38,217 nt of DNA, taken from assembly GCA_016781705.1 (NCBI GenBank), contig JADDPV010000147.1, forward strand, positions 1 through 38,217. Reading direction: 5' to 3'. Below, piece by piece: positions 9,161 to 17,293 of this stretch. The position numbers and the translations under genes were made by a program. Every line of letters starts with the position of its first letter. Positions within the stretch are counted from its first letter, which is position 1. The DNA is from Rubrobacter sp. Lineage in GTDB: Bacteria; Actinomycetota; Rubrobacteria; Rubrobacterales; Rubrobacteraceae. The notes under the pieces are model-generated. The model was given only the letters and a program-made list of their open reading frames with translations, searched no databases and was not told where the DNA came from.

Positions 9161-9983
9161 TCAAGGTGACGTCACGTGAGTAGGGCGCCAAGGGGTGTGA
9201 TCTCTGATCACAGCGTTGAGGGTGGCGAGCGGCTTGCGGGCGCCCGCGATGAGCGCCACTTTCTTGGGTTTGCCGGCCTTCAGGAGCCGCTCGTAGAAGG
9301 CCCTCACGGCGGGATTGTGCCGGGAGGCGGCGGAGAGAGGGACGCTATGTAGAAGAACGCGGCCTGTACCCTGCTCCTGCCACCGCCTCACACCTCTCGC
9401 TTGTCGCCCAGCCTGCCGGAGGAGTCGCGGTTGAACGGGGCAACACCCACCAAGGAGGCGGAAAGGCGCCTGTGTGAGAGCGCGCCGAGCTCGGCGAGGA
9501 GCGTCGTTGGGGCGAGGAGCACGGGGCCTACGCCGGGCGCGCTGCGCGAGAGCGCCTCGTTCTCGCGCCAGGCCTCGGTCACCGCGATCGCCTCGTCCAG
9601 GTCTCGGTCGGTACGGGCGCGCTCCTGCTCCAACCAGCGGACATGGGCGGACATGTGCTTCCTTACCGGCATGGAGGAGGTCGCCGAGAGGCGGCGGTTG
9701 TTCTCGGCGACGAGCACGCCGATGAGCTGCCTCCTGCGGTCGAGAATCTCACGCAGAAGAAGCGAGGCTTCCTCGTCGGTCAGAGTCCGGGGTTCGGGCC
9801 TCATCGCCTCGGCGAAGCGTGCGAGGACCTCGGTGATACGGGCGACGAGGTCCTCGACGATGCCCCCGGGGTCGTTGCCGGCGGCCGAGAAGCTCTCGCC
9901 CGTGGGGCGGATCACCACGTCCAGGCGCTCCCTTGACACGTCCACCCCAAAACGTAGCGGGTCGGCCTTCCTGGGTCGTTCAA
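9161..9983 (-). mobile_element. Degraded IS110-family transposase
   Basis: N-terminal VDVSRERLDVVIRPTGE. The middle jumps from DLVARITE to VLARFAEAMRPEPRTL. The helix-bearing C-terminal half has APGVGPVLLAPTTLLAELGALSHRRLSASLVGVAPFNRDSSGRLGDKRE. The end is RHNPAVRAFYERLLKAGKPKKVALIAGARKPLATLNAVIRDHTPW in another frame. A plausible TTG start at 9983 follows AAGGAG. Confidence 0.88.
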
Positions 9984-9998
9984 CGCGGTTCTCCTTCC

Positions 9999-10022
9999 TC
10001 TCGACGAAGGTCTCGACGAAGG
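9999..10022. repeat. 12-bp tandem duplication TCTCGACGAAGG x2
   Basis: Two exact adjacent copies, 9999-10010 and 10011-10022. Confidence 0.85.
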
Positions 10023-10031
10023 CTCGTCCCT

Positions 10032-10065
10032 GCCGATGCGGCTTCGCGGGCTATGCCGCATCGGC
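10032..10065. repeat. Stem-loop: 11-bp perfect arms GCCGATGCGGC/GCCGCATCGGC with 12-nt loop, upstream of the IS110 transposase
   Basis: Read directly from the sequence. Confidence 0.7.
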
Positions 10066-10596: not shown

Positions 10597-11378
10597 AGCG
10601 TGGCGGCGAGTCACTCGCGGTCCTCCTTCCTGCGCCGCAGGAAGATCAGGGGGTTGCGCAAGGCGTTGGAGGAGATCACACCGCTTACGATGGCCGGGAC
10701 GACTGCGAGCCCCGGCACGAGCCGCGCGAAGAGGTCCACGCTTGCCGACCAGCGCCCGAGCGCCTCGACCGCGCCGGGTAGCACTGCGGGGTCAGGCTCG
10801 ATCCTCCCGCCGGGGAACGTCAATACCGCGCCGCCGCTCCTCAGGTATCGGGCAGCGGCCCGGACGACCACGAGGCGCCCCGGCGACGCCTCCGATACCG
10901 TCAAAAGGTATCGTGAGGTGTTCGGGAGTGCCTCCAGGAACGGTCGTTCCGCCGCCACCACGCGCAGGTCCGCCCTCGGGGTCGCGGCGAACAGGGCGAC
11001 GGCGTCGCCCAGCCCCGGGTGGTTCGCGACGAGCAGCACCGGGCCCTCCCACGGTACGTTCCTCACGCCCTCGACCTCCAGGTGCCGGGCCATCCGCTCC
11101 GTCGCCCACGCGCCACCCGCCGCCAGGCCCGCCTCGCCCACTACGTGATCGTAGGTCGCCACCTGGCGCGCCAGGCGCCGCGCCGGGACGCGGGCGAGAA
11201 GCTCCAGCGTGCGCCGGGCTACGCCGCGCCGCGGCCCGTTCAGGCCGAAGGCGGAGAGCATATCGGCGGCGCACAACGCCGCCGTGAGCGTCTCGACCCG
11301 CTCCGAACCCTCCGGCGTGAGAGCCGGGCCTAAGGCGGGCGGCCGAGGGGCGTCATCTAGCATGGCGTGCCGATCCAT
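10449..11378 (-). pseudogene. 1-acyl-glycerol-3-phosphate acyltransferase-like (PlsC) with in-frame TGA at 10611-10613
   Basis: GPVLLVANHPGLGDAVALFAA...VLTFPGGRIEPDP...NALRNPLIFLRRRKEDRE, then TGA. The same frame continues coding-like: LAATLQMMTPALRDVATRVAFGRPVRAEGSSGGDVSRAVLGETRRLMERCGAR. Confidence 0.75.
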
Positions 11379-11434: not shown

Positions 11435-11845
11435 CTAACCGGAGCGGGTATCGCGGCGTAGCCGGAGGATCTCGACGGCCGAGCCGGCCAGGACGGTATC
11501 GTCCAGCCGGACGTTCGGCTTGGCGACCTTGACGCGGACGGCCTCGACGGTGGGGTGCTCCTCCAGGACCGCGGCGGCTATCCTCTCGGCGACCGTCTCG
11601 GTCAGGCCGGCGGGCGGGCCCTCGGCGATCTCCTTCACCCGCCGGTGTACCTCACCGTAGTCCACCGTCCTCGTCAGGTCGTCGGAGAGCCCGGCGGGAC
11701 GCAGGTCCAGACGCAGCTCGATGTCCACGACGAAGGGCTGGCCCAGCTCGCGCTCGGCGGAAAGCGTCCCGTGGCGGCCGTGGAAAACCATACCCTCTAG
11801 CAGTATGCGGTCCCAGCTCGCGGGGTTTTCCTCTCTCCGGTCCAT
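11435..11845 (-). CDS. folB: Dihydroneopterin aldolase
   Basis: WDRILLEGMVFHGRHGTLSAERELGQPFVVDIELRLDLRPAGLSDDLTRTVDYGEVHRRVKEI...VRVKVAKPNVRLDDTVLAGSAVEILR, characteristic of FolB. Confidence 0.92.
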   Translation of the reverse strand: MDRREENPASWDRILLEGMVFHGRHGTLSAERELGQPFVVDIELRLDLRPAGLSDDLTRTVDYGEVHRRVKEIAEGPPAGLTETVAERIAAAVLEEHPTVEAVRVKVAKPNVRLDDTVLAGSAVEILRLRRDTRSG

Positions 11846-11942: not shown

Positions 11943-12617
11943 ATGGACCGTCCGACAGTCACCGTGAGCTACGCCCAGACGCTAGACGGGCGCCTGGCGA
12001 CCGCGACCGGTAGCTCGCGCTGGATCAGTTCCCCCGAGTCGCTGCGCTTCGCCCACGCCCTGCGCTCGGATCACGGCGCGGTGATGGTGGGCGCCGGCAC
12101 CGCGTGCAGGGACGATCCGCGCCTCACGGTACGCCTCGTCCCCGGCGAAGACCCCCTGCGCGTCGTCGTGGACGGCTCTTTGCGCACGCCGCTCACCGCC
12201 GCGATGCTCGCTAATGGGGCCGCCAAGGGCACCGTGCTCGCCGTGACGAACCGCGCCCCCGCCGACCGCCGCGAAAAGGCGCGCTCTTTGGGCGCGACGG
12301 TCCTGCTGCTGCCGACCGGCGGTGAGGGCCGGGTGGATCTGTGCGCGCTGTTGTCGGAACTTTATGTCCTGGGCGTGCGTTCGGTGCTGGTGGAGGGAGG
12401 GGCGGCCCTGATCACGTCCTTCCTGCGCGACCGGTTGGTGGACCGGCTCGCCGTGTGCATCGCGCCCAAAGTCCTCGGGAGCGGCATCGAAGCCGTCGGG
12501 GACCTCGGCATCCGCGAGTTGGCCGAGTCCTTGACGCTGACCGACACCTCCGTGGTTCCCTATGGCGTGGACCTCGTCCTCGAAGGCCGCGTCGAGTATC
12601 CGGACGACGCTCGTTGA
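11943..12617 (+). CDS. RibD C-terminal-type reductase (stand-alone pyrimidine reductase/DHFR-like)
   Basis: MDRPTVTVSYAQTLDGRLATATGSSRWISSPESLRFAHALRSDHGAVMVGAGTACRDDPRLTVR...VRSVLVEGGAALITSFLRDRLVDRLAVCIAPKVLG. No deaminase domain. Confidence 0.9.
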   Translation: MDRPTVTVSYAQTLDGRLATATGSSRWISSPESLRFAHALRSDHGAVMVGAGTACRDDPRLTVRLVPGEDPLRVVVDGSLRTPLTAAMLANGAAKGTVLAVTNRAPADRREKARSLGATVLLLPTGGEGRVDLCALLSELYVLGVRSVLVEGGAALITSFLRDRLVDRLAVCIAPKVLGSGIEAVGDLGIRELAESLTLTDTSVVPYGVDLVLEGRVEYPDDAR

Positions 12618-13666
12618 GGGCCGAACCGTCCTCGCGGCCCGCCCCGCGCGACGTGCTCGAAGCCCGCGCCCTCTGGTTCTCCGCACCGCGCACAGCGGAG
12701 ATGCGCCCGGAGAAGGTGCCGCCCCCCGGGCCGGGAGAGGTGCGCGTCCGGACGGTCGCCTCGGCTATAAGCCACGGGACCGAGATGCTCGTCTACCGCG
12801 GCGAGGTCCCTCCCGACCTGCCGCTCGACCTGCCCACCCTCGCCGGCGGCTTCGGGTTCCCGATCAAATATGGCTACGCCACGGTCGGGCGCGTCCTCGA
12901 CATCGGCCCGAACGTCCCGGACCTCGCCCCCGGAGACCGTGTCTTCGTCCACCACCCGCACCAGGACGTGTTCGTCGTGTCCGCTGACATGCCGGTGCGC
13001 CTCCCCGAAAATCTCGACCCTCTGCGCGGCCTCTTCTTCGCCAACCTCGAGACCGCGGTGAACGTCGTCCACGACACGCCCTTACGCCTCGGCGAAACGG
13101 CCTTCGTCTTCGGGCAGGGCGTGGTCGGTCTGTTGGTGACCCAGCTGCTCGAGCTCGCCGGGGCGGGGCGGGTGCTGGCCGTGGACCCCCTGGCAAAGCG
13201 GCGGGAACTGGCGCTCGCGGTGGGCGCGGACGAGGCGCTTGAGCCGGACGACGTGCCCGAGCGCGTCCTCGGTGCGACCGCCGGGCGGGGCGCGGACGTG
13301 GCGGTCGAGGTAAGCGGGTCGGGGGAGGCGCTACAGGCTGCCATAGACGCCGTTGCGGTCGAAGGGACGGTCGTGGTAGCGTCGTGGTACGGCGCGAAGC
13401 CCGTCGCGCTCGCGCTCGGGGGACGCTTCCACAGGGGGAGGGTGAAACTCCGGTCCTCGCAGGTCGGGCGGATAAACCCGAAGCTCCTTCCGCGCTGGGA
13501 CCGCGACCGTCGGACGGAGGCGGTGCTCGGTCTGTTGCCCCGGCTGCGGCTCGCGGAGCTCGTCTCGCACCGCCTCCCTTTCGAGGAGGCGCCGGACGCC
13601 CATCGGCTCGTGGACGAGCGCCCCGAAGAGGTGGTGCAGGTCATCCTTACGCACGGCGAGTTTTGA
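12614..13666 (+). CDS. Medium-chain dehydrogenase/reductase superfamily protein; atypical, no GHE motif and no Cys
   Basis: MDR fold motifs ISHGTEMLVYRGE, GDRVFVHHPHQDVFVV, ETAFVFGQGVVGLLVTQLLELAGAGRVLAVDPLAKRRELALAVGADEAL. TTG start overlaps the upstream TGA. Confidence 0.85.
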   Translation: MRAEPSSRPAPRDVLEARALWFSAPRTAEMRPEKVPPPGPGEVRVRTVASAISHGTEMLVYRGEVPPDLPLDLPTLAGGFGFPIKYGYATVGRVLDIGPNVPDLAPGDRVFVHHPHQDVFVVSADMPVRLPENLDPLRGLFFANLETAVNVVHDTPLRLGETAFVFGQGVVGLLVTQLLELAGAGRVLAVDPLAKRRELALAVGADEALEPDDVPERVLGATAGRGADVAVEVSGSGEALQAAIDAVAVEGTVVVASWYGAKPVALALGGRFHRGRVKLRSSQVGRINPKLLPRWDRDRRTEAVLGLLPRLRLAELVSHRLPFEEAPDAHRLVDERPEEVVQVILTHGEF

Positions 13667-13677
13667 GGAGGCACGGG

Positions 13678-14055
13678 ATGTACGAGATCTACGTCGCGGC
13701 GGGGTTCGAGGCGGCGCACCGGCTCGTCGGAGACTTCGGGCCGGCGACGAGGACCCACGGACACACCTATCGGATGGAGGTGATCGTGCGCGGCGAGCGC
13801 CTCATGAACGACGGGACCCTCTACGATATCGGCCGCCTGCGCCCGGCCGTCGAGGAGCTGGCCGCCTCGCTGCACTACCGCGACCTGAACGAGGTGCCGG
13901 ACCTCGCGGGTACGAACACCACGGCCGAGGCGGTGGCCCACTACTGTTGGGACAAACTCGCCCCGTCCCTGAACGACCAGGGCCTCGACTCGCTGACGGT
14001 ACGCATCTGGGAAAACTCGCAGGTCTACGCCGCCCGCGAGGACTCGCTGGCCTGA
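13678..14055 (+). CDS. 6-pyruvoyl-tetrahydropterin synthase/QueD-like protein lacking the canonical catalytic triad
   Basis: Zn-ligand pattern FEAAHRL...HGHTY, NTTAEAVAHY helix, pterin-anchor-like IWEN. Strong Shine-Dalgarno GAGGAGG. Confidence 0.88.
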   Translation: MYEIYVAAGFEAAHRLVGDFGPATRTHGHTYRMEVIVRGERLMNDGTLYDIGRLRPAVEELAASLHYRDLNEVPDLAGTNTTAEAVAHYCWDKLAPSLNDQGLDSLTVRIWENSQVYAAREDSLA

Positions 14056-14069
14056 CCCGGGGGTACTCT

Positions 14070-15167
14070 TTGCGCGTCGCCTTCGTCACGGTGGGGGAAA
14101 CGGGTCGCCTGACCGGCGGTTACCTCTACAATGCCCGCGTCATCGCGGGGCTGCGCGAGGAGGGGATCGAGGTGGAGGAGATCGTGGCCTCCGGGGCATC
14201 CCCGATCGAGCAGGAAGCTGCGGCGCCATGGTTCGACTTCGATGCCGGGCGCTTCGACGTGGCCGTCGTGGACGCGCTGGCCTGTGCCGTTTGCGCGCCC
14301 CACCTCGACCGCTGGCGCAAGATACTCCCTGTCGTGGCGATGGTCCACGAGCTGCCCAGCGTCGCTAACGGAGCCGCCCGTGACAGGAAGTTCGAGGAGC
14401 CGCTACTGCGCGCCGACCTCCTCGTGGCCGTGAGCGAGCACGGCGCGTCCATCCTGAAGAACCGGGGAGTGCCACTCGAACGCGTCCGCGTCGTTTCGCC
14501 CGGCTTCGACCGTCTCTCGCTACCGGCCGCCAACGCGGGGCCGTCCGTACGTGAAGATGCACCCTTACGCGTCCTCTGCGTGGCACAATGGATCCCGCGC
14601 AAAGGCATCCTGGACCTCGTGCGCGCGTGGAAGGCCCGCGAGCGGCCGGGCGCGACGCTCGAGCTCATAGGCGAGACGGACGCCGACCCCGAATACGCGG
14701 CCTGCGTGCGCCACGCCATAGCGGATTCACCGGACGCCTCCATCTCCGAGCGTGGTCGGGTCAGCGACGCGGCAGTCGCCGGGGCTTATGCCGCCGCGGA
14801 TCTCTTCGCGCTGCCCTCTCGCTACGAGGGCTACGGCATCGTCTACGCCGAGGCGCTCGCGCACGGGTTGCCGGTGATCGCGTGCGACACGGGTCCGGTC
14901 CCCGGGCTGGTCGGCGGGGAGGCCGCCATCCTCGTGCCACCGGGCGACGTTAGGGCTCTCTCCGGGGCCTTGGGGCTCTTGCTCGACGATACCGCGCTGC
15001 GGCGCCGGATGTCCGCCGCTGCCCGCCGCCGCGCCGCCGATCTACCACGCTGGAAAGATACCGTGACCGCCTTCTGGCGGGTCCTGCGGGAAGCGTTCGA
15101 GGCGCGCCGGGTCGACGCGTCCCCGTTGCAGAATCCTCCCGTGGACCGCACGGACCTTCGCGAGTAG
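14070..15167 (+). CDS. Glycosyltransferase family 4
   Basis: MRVAFVTVGETGRLTGGYLYNARVIAGLREEGIEVEEI...LRVLCVAQWIPRKGILDLVRAW...LFALPSRYEGYGIVYAEALAHGLPVIACDTGPVPGLVGGEAAILVPPGD. Confidence 0.92.
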   Translation: MRVAFVTVGETGRLTGGYLYNARVIAGLREEGIEVEEIVASGASPIEQEAAAPWFDFDAGRFDVAVVDALACAVCAPHLDRWRKILPVVAMVHELPSVANGAARDRKFEEPLLRADLLVAVSEHGASILKNRGVPLERVRVVSPGFDRLSLPAANAGPSVREDAPLRVLCVAQWIPRKGILDLVRAWKARERPGATLELIGETDADPEYAACVRHAIADSPDASISERGRVSDAAVAGAYAAADLFALPSRYEGYGIVYAEALAHGLPVIACDTGPVPGLVGGEAAILVPPGDVRALSGALGLLLDDTALRRRMSAAARRRAADLPRWKDTVTAFWRVLREAFEARRVDASPLQNPPVDRTDLRE

Positions 15168-15188
15168 AACCGGCGTTTCTGGAACGAG

Positions 15189-15990
15189 ATGGCGGGGGCA
15201 CACGAAAGCCACCGCGGGCACCTTGCTGGGTTCTTGCGCGGGGGCGGCAGCACGCTCCTCCCGGAGGAGCGGAGACTGCTCGGCGACCTCGGGAGCAAGA
15301 TGCTCCTCCATTTGCAGTGCAACTCCGGGGCGACTCTTTGAGCCTCGCCATGCTCGGGGCTGAGGTGGCCGGCGTGGACATCAGCGACGAGGCCATCTCC
15401 TCCGCCCACGCTCTCTCCGCCAGGACCGGCGTCCCGGCGAGCTTCGAGCGCGCCGACATCTACGATTGGCTGGCGGACGCGGCGCGAGCGGGACGACGCT
15501 TCGACGCCGCTTTCTCCTCCTACGGCGTCGTCTGCTGGCTACCCGACCTCGAAGCGTGGACCGAGGTATCGCCCCGCCATCCTCGAGCCCGGCGGGCGCT
15601 TCGTGCTCGTGGGCTTCCACCCGGCGGCGATGATGTTCGACGCGAACTGGAACCACGTCCACGACTACTACTCCGGCGGCGAGCCGCTTACCGAGGACGA
15701 GGGAGTAGGAGACTACGTGGGCGAGTCCTGGGGTGGCCTAACCCCCGCCAGGTTCGTCGAGGGCTCCGGGGTTTCGGGAACCACGAGCGTTGCCACCTGT
15801 TTCGGTGGGGGTTCGGAGAGGTCGGCACGGCCCTCGCCGGGGCCAGGTTGCGGATAACCGCCCTCGAGGAGTATCCGTACTCAAACGGCGAGCGCCTCTT
15901 CGCCGGGATGCGCGAACTGCCGGGGAGGCGCATAGTCCCATCTGAACTGGCTGGCATGGGTGAGAATTATGTCCACCGACACAGATGGTC
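15189..15990 (+). pseudogene. Class I SAM-dependent methyltransferase, three or more frameshifts and an atypical 3' end
   Basis: Pieces in alternating frames: LLGDLGSKMLLHLQCNSG / SLSLAMLGAEVAGVDISDEAISSAHALSARTGVPASFERADIYDWL / AILEPGGRFVLVGFHPAAMMFDANWNHVHDYYSGGEPL / NHERCHLFRWGFGEVGTALAGARLRITALEEYPYSNGERLFAGMRE. Confidence 0.85.
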
Positions 15991-16139: not shown

Positions 16140-17183
16140 TTAACGGGAAAAGAAGAACGCGAGGGCGGCGATGACGTAGACGCCGCAGAGCATCGCGCCC
16201 TCCAGCCAGTTGGACTTGCCGTCGAGGGCGATGAAACCGGTAAGGACGACCGCCGCGCCCAGGGCGCCGAGCTCCAGGGGGGTGAAGACGAGGTCCAGGG
16301 GGTGACCGAGGAGGGGGCCGAGGAAGACCAGGATCGGCGTGACCAGCAGCGCGACCTGGATCGAGGAGCCCAGGGAGATCGCCATCGAGAAGTCCATGTC
16401 GTTCTTGTAGGCGATCTGGACGCCCACGATGTGCTCGGCGATGTTGCCGACGATGGGCACGAGTATCACGCCGACGAAGAGCTCGGAGATCCCAATCTCC
16501 TCCGTCATCGGCTCTATGGCCCCCACGAAGGCCTCGGAGACGTAGGCGACCGCGGCGGTCGCCCCGATGAGCAGCGCGAAGGAGGCCGCCCTGCCGAACG
16601 GCGCGTGCCCCTCGCCGGTGGCGATGCCCCCCTCGGGGCTGCGGAAGTAGAAGACCAGGTAAAGGATGTAGAGGACGAACATCACCACACCCACCTCGAT
16701 GCTCAAGGTGGTGGGGGAGCCACCGCCTCTTTGGGCCTCGGTGGCGACGAAGATCGTGGGCAGGACCAGGGCGGCGGCGACGATGGCAAGCATCGAGGCG
16801 TTTATCCCGGCGATGGTCGCCGAGAAGCTCTGGGTACCGTTCTTCAGGCCCCCGATGAGCAGGCTGGCCCCCAAAACCAGGAGCACGTTCCCGATTATGG
16901 AGCCGATGATCGAGGCCTTCACTACCGTCGTGAGGCCCGCCGAGAGGGCGAAGATAGTGATGATCAGCTCGGCGGCGTTGCCGAAGGTGGCGTTGAGGAT
17001 GCCCCCGATGCGTGGGCCGGCGTGGTGGCCTAGGCTCTCGGTGGCCTGCCCCAGCACCCACGCGAGCCCTATGAGGGCCAGCGAGGTCAGGGCGAAGATG
17101 AGGAGCACCGAGGCGTGCAGCAGCTCCACGACGACGACCGCGATCGTCAAGGCGATAGTCAGGCCGTAAGCGACTCTTCTCAT
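16140..17183 (-). CDS. Calcium/proton (cation) antiporter, CaCA family (Cax)
   Basis: GGILNATFGNAAELIITIFALSAGLTTVVKASIIGSIIGNVLLVLGASLLIGGLKNGTQSF and the second alpha repeat VPIVGNIAEHIVGVQIAYKNDMDFSMAISLGSSIQVALLVTPILVFL. Confidence 0.93.
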   Translation of the reverse strand: MRRVAYGLTIALTIAVVVVELLHASVLLIFALTSLALIGLAWVLGQATESLGHHAGPRIGGILNATFGNAAELIITIFALSAGLTTVVKASIIGSIIGNVLLVLGASLLIGGLKNGTQSFSATIAGINASMLAIVAAALVLPTIFVATEAQRGGGSPTTLSIEVGVVMFVLYILYLVFYFRSPEGGIATGEGHAPFGRAASFALLIGATAAVAYVSEAFVGAIEPMTEEIGISELFVGVILVPIVGNIAEHIVGVQIAYKNDMDFSMAISLGSSIQVALLVTPILVFLGPLLGHPLDLVFTPLELGALGAAVVLTGFIALDGKSNWLEGAMLCGVYVIAALAFFFSR

Positions 17184-17293
17184 CGGGTAATCCCTTCCGC
17201 GGATGGGCACGGCGCCGACTCTATACCCCGATGAACGCGCCCGGTATCCTATAAGATGAAGTAGGAAGACACCGGACCTCTAGGAGACGCCTT

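Follow-up and report, generated by a model that had tools for sequence, protein, structure and literature searches.

Results

Gene content of the locus

The window, by which we mean the whole stretch of 38,217 nucleotides analysed here, comes from a metagenome bin of a Rubrobacter sp. and carries a compact group of genes around a homologue of 6-pyruvoyl tetrahydropterin synthase (PTPS). This gene (13678–14055, plus strand) encodes a PTPS-IV-like protein of 125 aa, characterized by translation, Pfam, alignments and structure prediction, that keeps the zinc ligands of the family and lacks its catalytic triad; it is called zPTPS below. Upstream of it on the plus strand lie a stand-alone RibD_C reductase without a deaminase domain (11943–12617; Pfam PF01872, E 3.5e-52) and an MDR dehydrogenase of the zinc-type alcohol dehydrogenase superfamily (12614–13666; PF00107/PF08240), the start of which overlaps the end of RibD_C and which reads S-H-G-T-E at the usual catalytic zinc Cys site. 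Downstream, 14 bases past zPTPS, follows a GT4-family glycosyltransferase (14070–15167, plus strand; PF00534/PF13692) and then the remnant of a class I methyltransferase (15153–15946, plus strand), which in the assembly opens with a stop codon and changes frame several times. Successive genes from RibD_C to the methyltransferase overlap or are separated by 11–14 bases, and RibD_C, MDR and GT4 are conserved neighbours of zPTPS. A dihydroneopterin aldolase, FolB (11435–11845, minus strand; PF02152, E 8.5e-34), precedes the operon and is divergent from it in the window, while it is co-directional in Chloroflexota; its alignment shows that the Glu, Tyr and Lys known to act in FolB catalysis are retained. 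GTP cyclohydrolase II (GCH II; PF00925) was not found beside zPTPS in this cluster.

Relatives carry the methyltransferase after GT4 intact, in one case (L043) in the same frame as GT4; the copy in the window is either a pseudogene or an assembly error. An acyltransferase-like protein (10611–11378, minus strand) and a calcium/proton exchanger (16140–17210, minus strand) flank the cluster in many Rubrobacteraceae and are probably neighbours rather than parts of it. Further out, positions 9388–10050 (minus strand) match an IS110-family RNA-guided transposase at 35 bits, below the cut-off, and are likely a remnant.

Residues and fold of zPTPS

The original prediction, made from the sequence of this gene, had read three zinc histidines (H14, H27 and H29), the pterin-anchoring glutamate E112 and the conserved NTTAEAVAHY segment, and translation and a Pfam search (PTPS PF01242 over residues 3–119, E 1.2e-30) bear out the frame, the coordinates and all of these residues. 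Its further claim that the Cys/Asp/His triad is lost agrees with our alignment to canonical proteins, in which Ala23 stands at the catalytic Cys, His66 at the Asp and Tyr67 at the His, and so does the claimed absence of the PTPS-III glutamate: Thr24 takes the place of the Glu of ExxHGH, at a position that is variable in relatives. The AlphaFold2 model (mean pLDDT 97.2) is matched best in Foldseek by SCO6650 of Streptomyces coelicolor (3d7j, TM 0.92/0.86) and then by E. coli QueD (TM ~0.80), and the matches to 3d7j, 3qna and 1gtq place the protein in the T-fold. Its 59 bits against the TIGR03367 QueD equivalog lie below the cut-off of 89 bits.

Compared with the named subfamilies, zPTPS resembles QueD/PTPS-I (E. 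coli 4NTK, 3QNA) in its T-fold (TM 0.80), zinc histidines and anchor Glu. It differs in the absence of the CxxxHGH Cys and of the Asp-His pair (Ala23, His66 and Tyr67 instead), in having no queuosine neighbours, and in that the window's genome has a separate, normal QueD of its own (L001, with CSRVHGH and LDHRHLN). The PTPS-II motif CxxxxxHGH (PMC5041015) is likewise absent, with Gly21 six residues before HGH. The original prediction had argued for a role different from the known PTPS and QueD chemistries; for PTPS-I, -II and -III this holds by signature residues, but it had overlooked a group, PTPS-IV, in which loss of the triad is already known, SCO6650 included. PTPS-IV, cluster-node 62 of the AGeNNT network in PMC5445326, is defined there by an FGPAQ signature and by PF00925 and PF01872 neighbours. 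Of these neighbours, PF01872 lies beside the window's gene, while PF00925 was seen in Chloroflexota and actinobacterial relatives and not beside the gene in the window. The description of the node mentions no FolB, MDR, GT4, methyltransferase or pathway, and it calls PF00925 FolE2.

Conservation

Within Rubrobacteraceae, all 26 aligned zPTPS sequences (68–100% identity) have retained the zinc ligands while the triad is missing, and a genome scan found the protein also in Chloroflexota, in Chloroflexus, Roseiflexaceae, Sphaerobacter, Thermoflexus and other bins; such a pattern is most unlikely to be accidental. Among 32 zinc-type sequences from the two groups, Ala23, H27, H29 and E112 are present in every one, H14 in 31, Asp50 in 30, Tyr67 in 29 and His66 in 28. 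Y31, Y67, T82, E84 and D50 are nearly invariant across two phyla, like the zinc ligands and E112. The FGPA motif is near-invariant too; the residue after it is T in the window, 6/32 close relatives have Q there, as does the SCO6650 type, and some Chloroflexota members read FGPAQ. In a tree, zPTPS and the SCO6650 type stand apart from canonical COG0720 proteins (support 97/95), which are represented by three rows only, one of them long-branched. We considered and rejected sequencing error as the source of the triad substitutions, as identical residues occur in 32 sequences, and also the decay of a QueD, as the substitutions are fixed in relatives and an ordinary QueD is present elsewhere in the genome.

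SCO6650 (PDB 3D7J, PTPS-IV), the closest fold match, is also the best sequence match to zPTPS (E 2.8e-14). The two have in common the FGPA motif and the loss of the Cys and of the Asp-His pair, with N/H-Y-R at the site of the pair, and Streptomyces relatives of SCO6650 also have MDR, GT4 and methyltransferase neighbours. They differ in the zinc site, since the SCO6650 type reads HGA and has lost the third zinc His, whereas zPTPS reads HGH and retains H14, H27 and H29. They differ also in their surroundings: SCO6650-type clusters (MDR-PTPS-GT-MT-membrane protein, where MT is the methyltransferase) include a Met-type GCH II besides the membrane protein, and no FolB, while FolB and RibD_C stand alongside zPTPS in the window. 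SCO6650 itself, reportedly without zinc and without PTPS activity, was not mentioned in the literature that we searched. In the three Streptomyces-type loci in which the GCH II motif was read (L054, L194 and L195), Met replaces Tyr (RAMALQ), and in two Streptomyces loci (L054 and L197) a creatininase-family gene adjoins GCH II; two other genomes (G351 and G189) have a Tyr-type GCH II with RibD_C alongside. The actinobacterial branch pairs Met-type GCH II with a creatininase-family protein in Streptomyces, and Tyr-type GCH II with RibD_C elsewhere, a pattern that speaks for the pathway proposed below. The Met-type enzyme SCO6655 is said to stop at the formyl intermediate. A creatininase-family formamidase deformylates this GCH II intermediate (PMC9478397), and that paper was the only relevant match in our literature search on the cluster.

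The cluster in relatives

The RibD_C-MDR-zPTPS-GT4 operon recurs in about 18 Rubrobacteraceae loci. The order in Chloroflexota, with identities assigned by Pfam, is methyltransferase-FolB-RibD_C-MDR-zPTPS-GT4, often with GCH II on the opposite strand, or else GCH II-RibD_C-MDR-zPTPS-GT4. Within 4.5 kb of zPTPS we counted GT4 at 40, MDR at 38, RibD_C at 36, FolB at 25, the methyltransferase at 19 and GCH II at 12 of 43 loci, all of them lower bounds because many of these loci lie on short, truncated contigs. RibD_C, MDR and GT4 occur together within this distance at 33/43 zPTPS loci vs 0/37 other COG0720 loci in a single scan. FolB is missing from about one third of the clusters with adequate flanks. 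Several key relatives are, like the window, metagenome bins. In the window's bin (G000) the cluster occurs three times (C275, C206 and C281), the copies being about 79% identical, and the assembly probably mixes strains or species. In one Chloroflexus-type genome (L200 in G125) there are two near-identical zPTPS copies, at 9658–10029 and 13820–14191, with a partial GT4 between them.

Other pterin and folate genes

FolE (GCH I) is present in most Rubrobacteraceae, the window's genome included, and in Chloroflexus, and a simple replacement of FolE by the cluster in Rubrobacteraceae was rejected on this ground. Five cluster-bearing bins (G068, G069, G070, G072 and G073) were searched for FolE, FolE2, FolK and FolP, and none of these was found. 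The sole Pterin_bind domain in these bins lies within a frame of ~1200 aa, as in MetH, and is not FolP, and the single FolB of each is that of the cluster. In a further bin (G071), FolE, FolE2 and FolB were not found, while FolK and FolP are present; FolK and FolP were also not found in the Chloroflexus-type genomes.

Among 67 Chloroflexota genomes, FolB occurs in 13/18 with zPTPS vs 3/49 without it (Fisher p 1.4e-7, a guide only, as the genomes are related and the value overstates their independence). FolB is unrelated to FolK in Chloroflexota genomes (p 0.40). FolB as a mere folate neighbour in this phylum was rejected, since it tracks zPTPS and not FolK. In one of the 13 genomes with both genes (G172), FolB is of the folate type and adjoins FolK.

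Discussion

We suggest that zPTPS is an active enzyme, that it belongs to a PTPS-IV branch which has kept its zinc site, and that it functions in a pathway dedicated to one small molecule and fed by the product of GCH II. We give this reading a probability of roughly 0.45. With the same confidence, a little short of even odds, we propose that the cluster as a whole encodes the route from GCH II through RibD_C, MDR, zPTPS and FolB to glycosylation and methylation. More tentative is the reading that Chloroflexota and Rubrobacteraceae may make pterins independently of GCH I, with a triad-less zinc PTPS closing the ring before the cut by FolB and glycosylation. FolE is present in most Rubrobacteraceae, so a bypass of it is not needed there. 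The clusters without FolB, and that of the window without GCH II, also count against the pathway.

From the anatomy of the cluster, its conservation and co-occurrence, the residues seen in FolB and GCH II, and several cluster-bearing genomes in which FolE, FolE2, FolK and FolP were not found, we infer the following order of reactions. GCH II, whose zinc cysteines and catalytic Tyr are retained in the clusters (KAYALQ), would supply 2,5-diamino-6-ribosylamino-4(3H)-pyrimidinone 5'-phosphate. The stand-alone RibD_C could then reduce the ribosyl to a ribityl chain; its nearest solved relatives are archaeal-type 2,5-diamino-6-ribosylamino-pyrimidinone 5'-phosphate reductases (6p8c, 126 bits; 2azn, 115), with a weaker match to bacterial RibD (91 bits). 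As no deaminase takes part, the 2-amino group that a pterin needs would stay in place. MDR, whose PDB relatives are butanediol, threonine and iditol dehydrogenases, would next turn the ribityl C2'-OH into a ketone, as polyol dehydrogenases do, and attack of the 5-amino group on this ketone would yield 7,8-dihydroneopterin (phosphate). GCH I reaches the same keto intermediate by an Amadori rearrangement. Dihydroneopterin, the product of such a closure, is what FolB acts on, and FolB would then cut the side chain to give 6-hydroxymethyl-dihydropterin, and decoration by GT4 and the methyltransferase could lead to a pterin glycoside comparable to cyanopterin.

In this pathway E112 of zPTPS would hold the ring, and its zinc site together with Tyr67/His66 would most likely aid ring closure or a later tautomerization. 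The protein is the natural candidate for closure or a subsequent step because E112 and the zinc site are kept and only side-chain shuttling residues are lost; the triad may be dispensable because it serves side-chain proton shuttling in PTPS and QueD. We regard the placement of zPTPS at ring closure or at the step after it as the weakest link of the pathway, and ring closure could be spontaneous, which would count against such a role. The zinc, too, is possibly not essential to a reaction shared with the SCO6650-type relatives, because these lack the third zinc His.

The strongest competitor, although unlikely in our view, is that zPTPS acts on a pterin made by FolE and that the cluster remodels dihydroneopterin without any GCH II-derived intermediate, by RibD_C (a DHFR-like fold) reduction, side-chain oxidation by MDR and glycosylation. 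The presence of FolE in most cluster-bearing Rubrobacteraceae and Chloroflexus genomes fits this, and FolB, zPTPS and possibly GT4 are pterin-handling families. Against it stand six cluster-bearing genomes in which neither FolE nor FolE2 was found, the many Chloroflexota and actinobacteria that have GCH II inside the cluster, and the fact that pyrimidine reductases are closest to RibD_C.

The original prediction had left a choice between new chemistry and a binding or pseudoenzyme role. Of the two we favour new chemistry; that zPTPS serves the pathway only as a subunit that binds pterin or acts as a scaffold, with no catalytic activity, is rather improbable. Such a subunit would account for the replacement of the whole triad and for an HGA branch in which one zinc ligand is gone as well. 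It fits poorly with residues held near-invariant across two phyla (the zinc ligands, E112, Y31, Y67, T82, E84 and D50) and with a gene inside the operon core. The invariance of the zinc site makes an enzymatic step likelier, and so does the gene's fixed place in a biosynthetic operon with RibD_C, MDR, FolB, GT4 and often GCH II.

We give still less weight to the idea that the cluster serves the synthesis of coenzyme F420/FO or of riboflavin, for which GCH II and RibD_C provide precursors, and with F420 an unpublished link of PTPS-IV is mentioned in PMC5041015. However, a full-length RibD separate from the cluster is found in nearly all cluster-bearing genomes, the cluster is without a deaminase, and the known F420 route has no place for FolB, GT4 and the methyltransferase. 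Finally, COG0720 members can replace FolB and the cluster FolB is the only FolB in many Rubrobacteraceae, but that zPTPS is a PTPS-III/VI-like aldolase substitute feeding FolK is hardly credible given that ExxHGH is absent, FolB itself adjoins zPTPS, FolK and FolP were not found in several of the genomes with the cluster, and zPTPS does not track FolK (p 0.79).

The GCH II-fed route that we favour has partial counterparts in known systems. As far as the literature searched shows, the zinc-keeping branch, the operon with FolB, GT4 and the methyltransferase, and the pathway proposal are new. The cyanobacterial cyanopterin/pteridine glycoside pathway (PgtA, BGluT; PMC3546692) likewise joins a pterin and a glycosyltransferase, and the methylated sugar and 6-hydroxymethylpterin core of cyanopterin match the proposed product; that pathway, however, uses GCH I, and no operon of RibD_C, MDR and zPTPS has been described for cyanopterin. 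The window's GT4 matches a UDP-glucose:tetrahydrobiopterin glucosyltransferase (5ze7) weakly, at 32 bits. In Chlamydia, RibA and TrpF reportedly (Adams et al., 2014) bypass FolE and convert the GCH II product to dihydroneopterin phosphate without GCH I. The Chlamydia bypass relies on an Amadori rearrangement by TrpF, whereas the route proposed here would proceed by reduction and re-oxidation.

PTPS-IV has a known structure and no assigned function, and the zinc-keeping branch with its seven-gene context offers a concrete pathway that can be tested. If the proposal is true, pterins are made without GCH I, a PTPS-fold enzyme can act without the known catalytic motifs, a glycosylated pterin that has yet to be described is produced in two phyla, and the label '6-pyruvoyl tetrahydropterin synthase' carried by zPTPS genes should be corrected.

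Additional observations on FolB and FolE genes

The window's genome has a second FolB beside FolK and FolP (G000:C4:4827-6952); its FolB match contains a TGA. Elsewhere in the same genome (G000:C32:1322-4192; L001, L005 and L140), FolE2 lies near two QueD-like matches, the first of which ends after the HGH motif. The FolE genes of several Rubrobacteraceae, L207 (G023:C73), L208 (G018:C15) and G015:C230, appear to be split in frame by intein-like insertions. These start with CVASKQ or CYDRETEILT and end at HN/C or GN/C, and there are two of them in G023.
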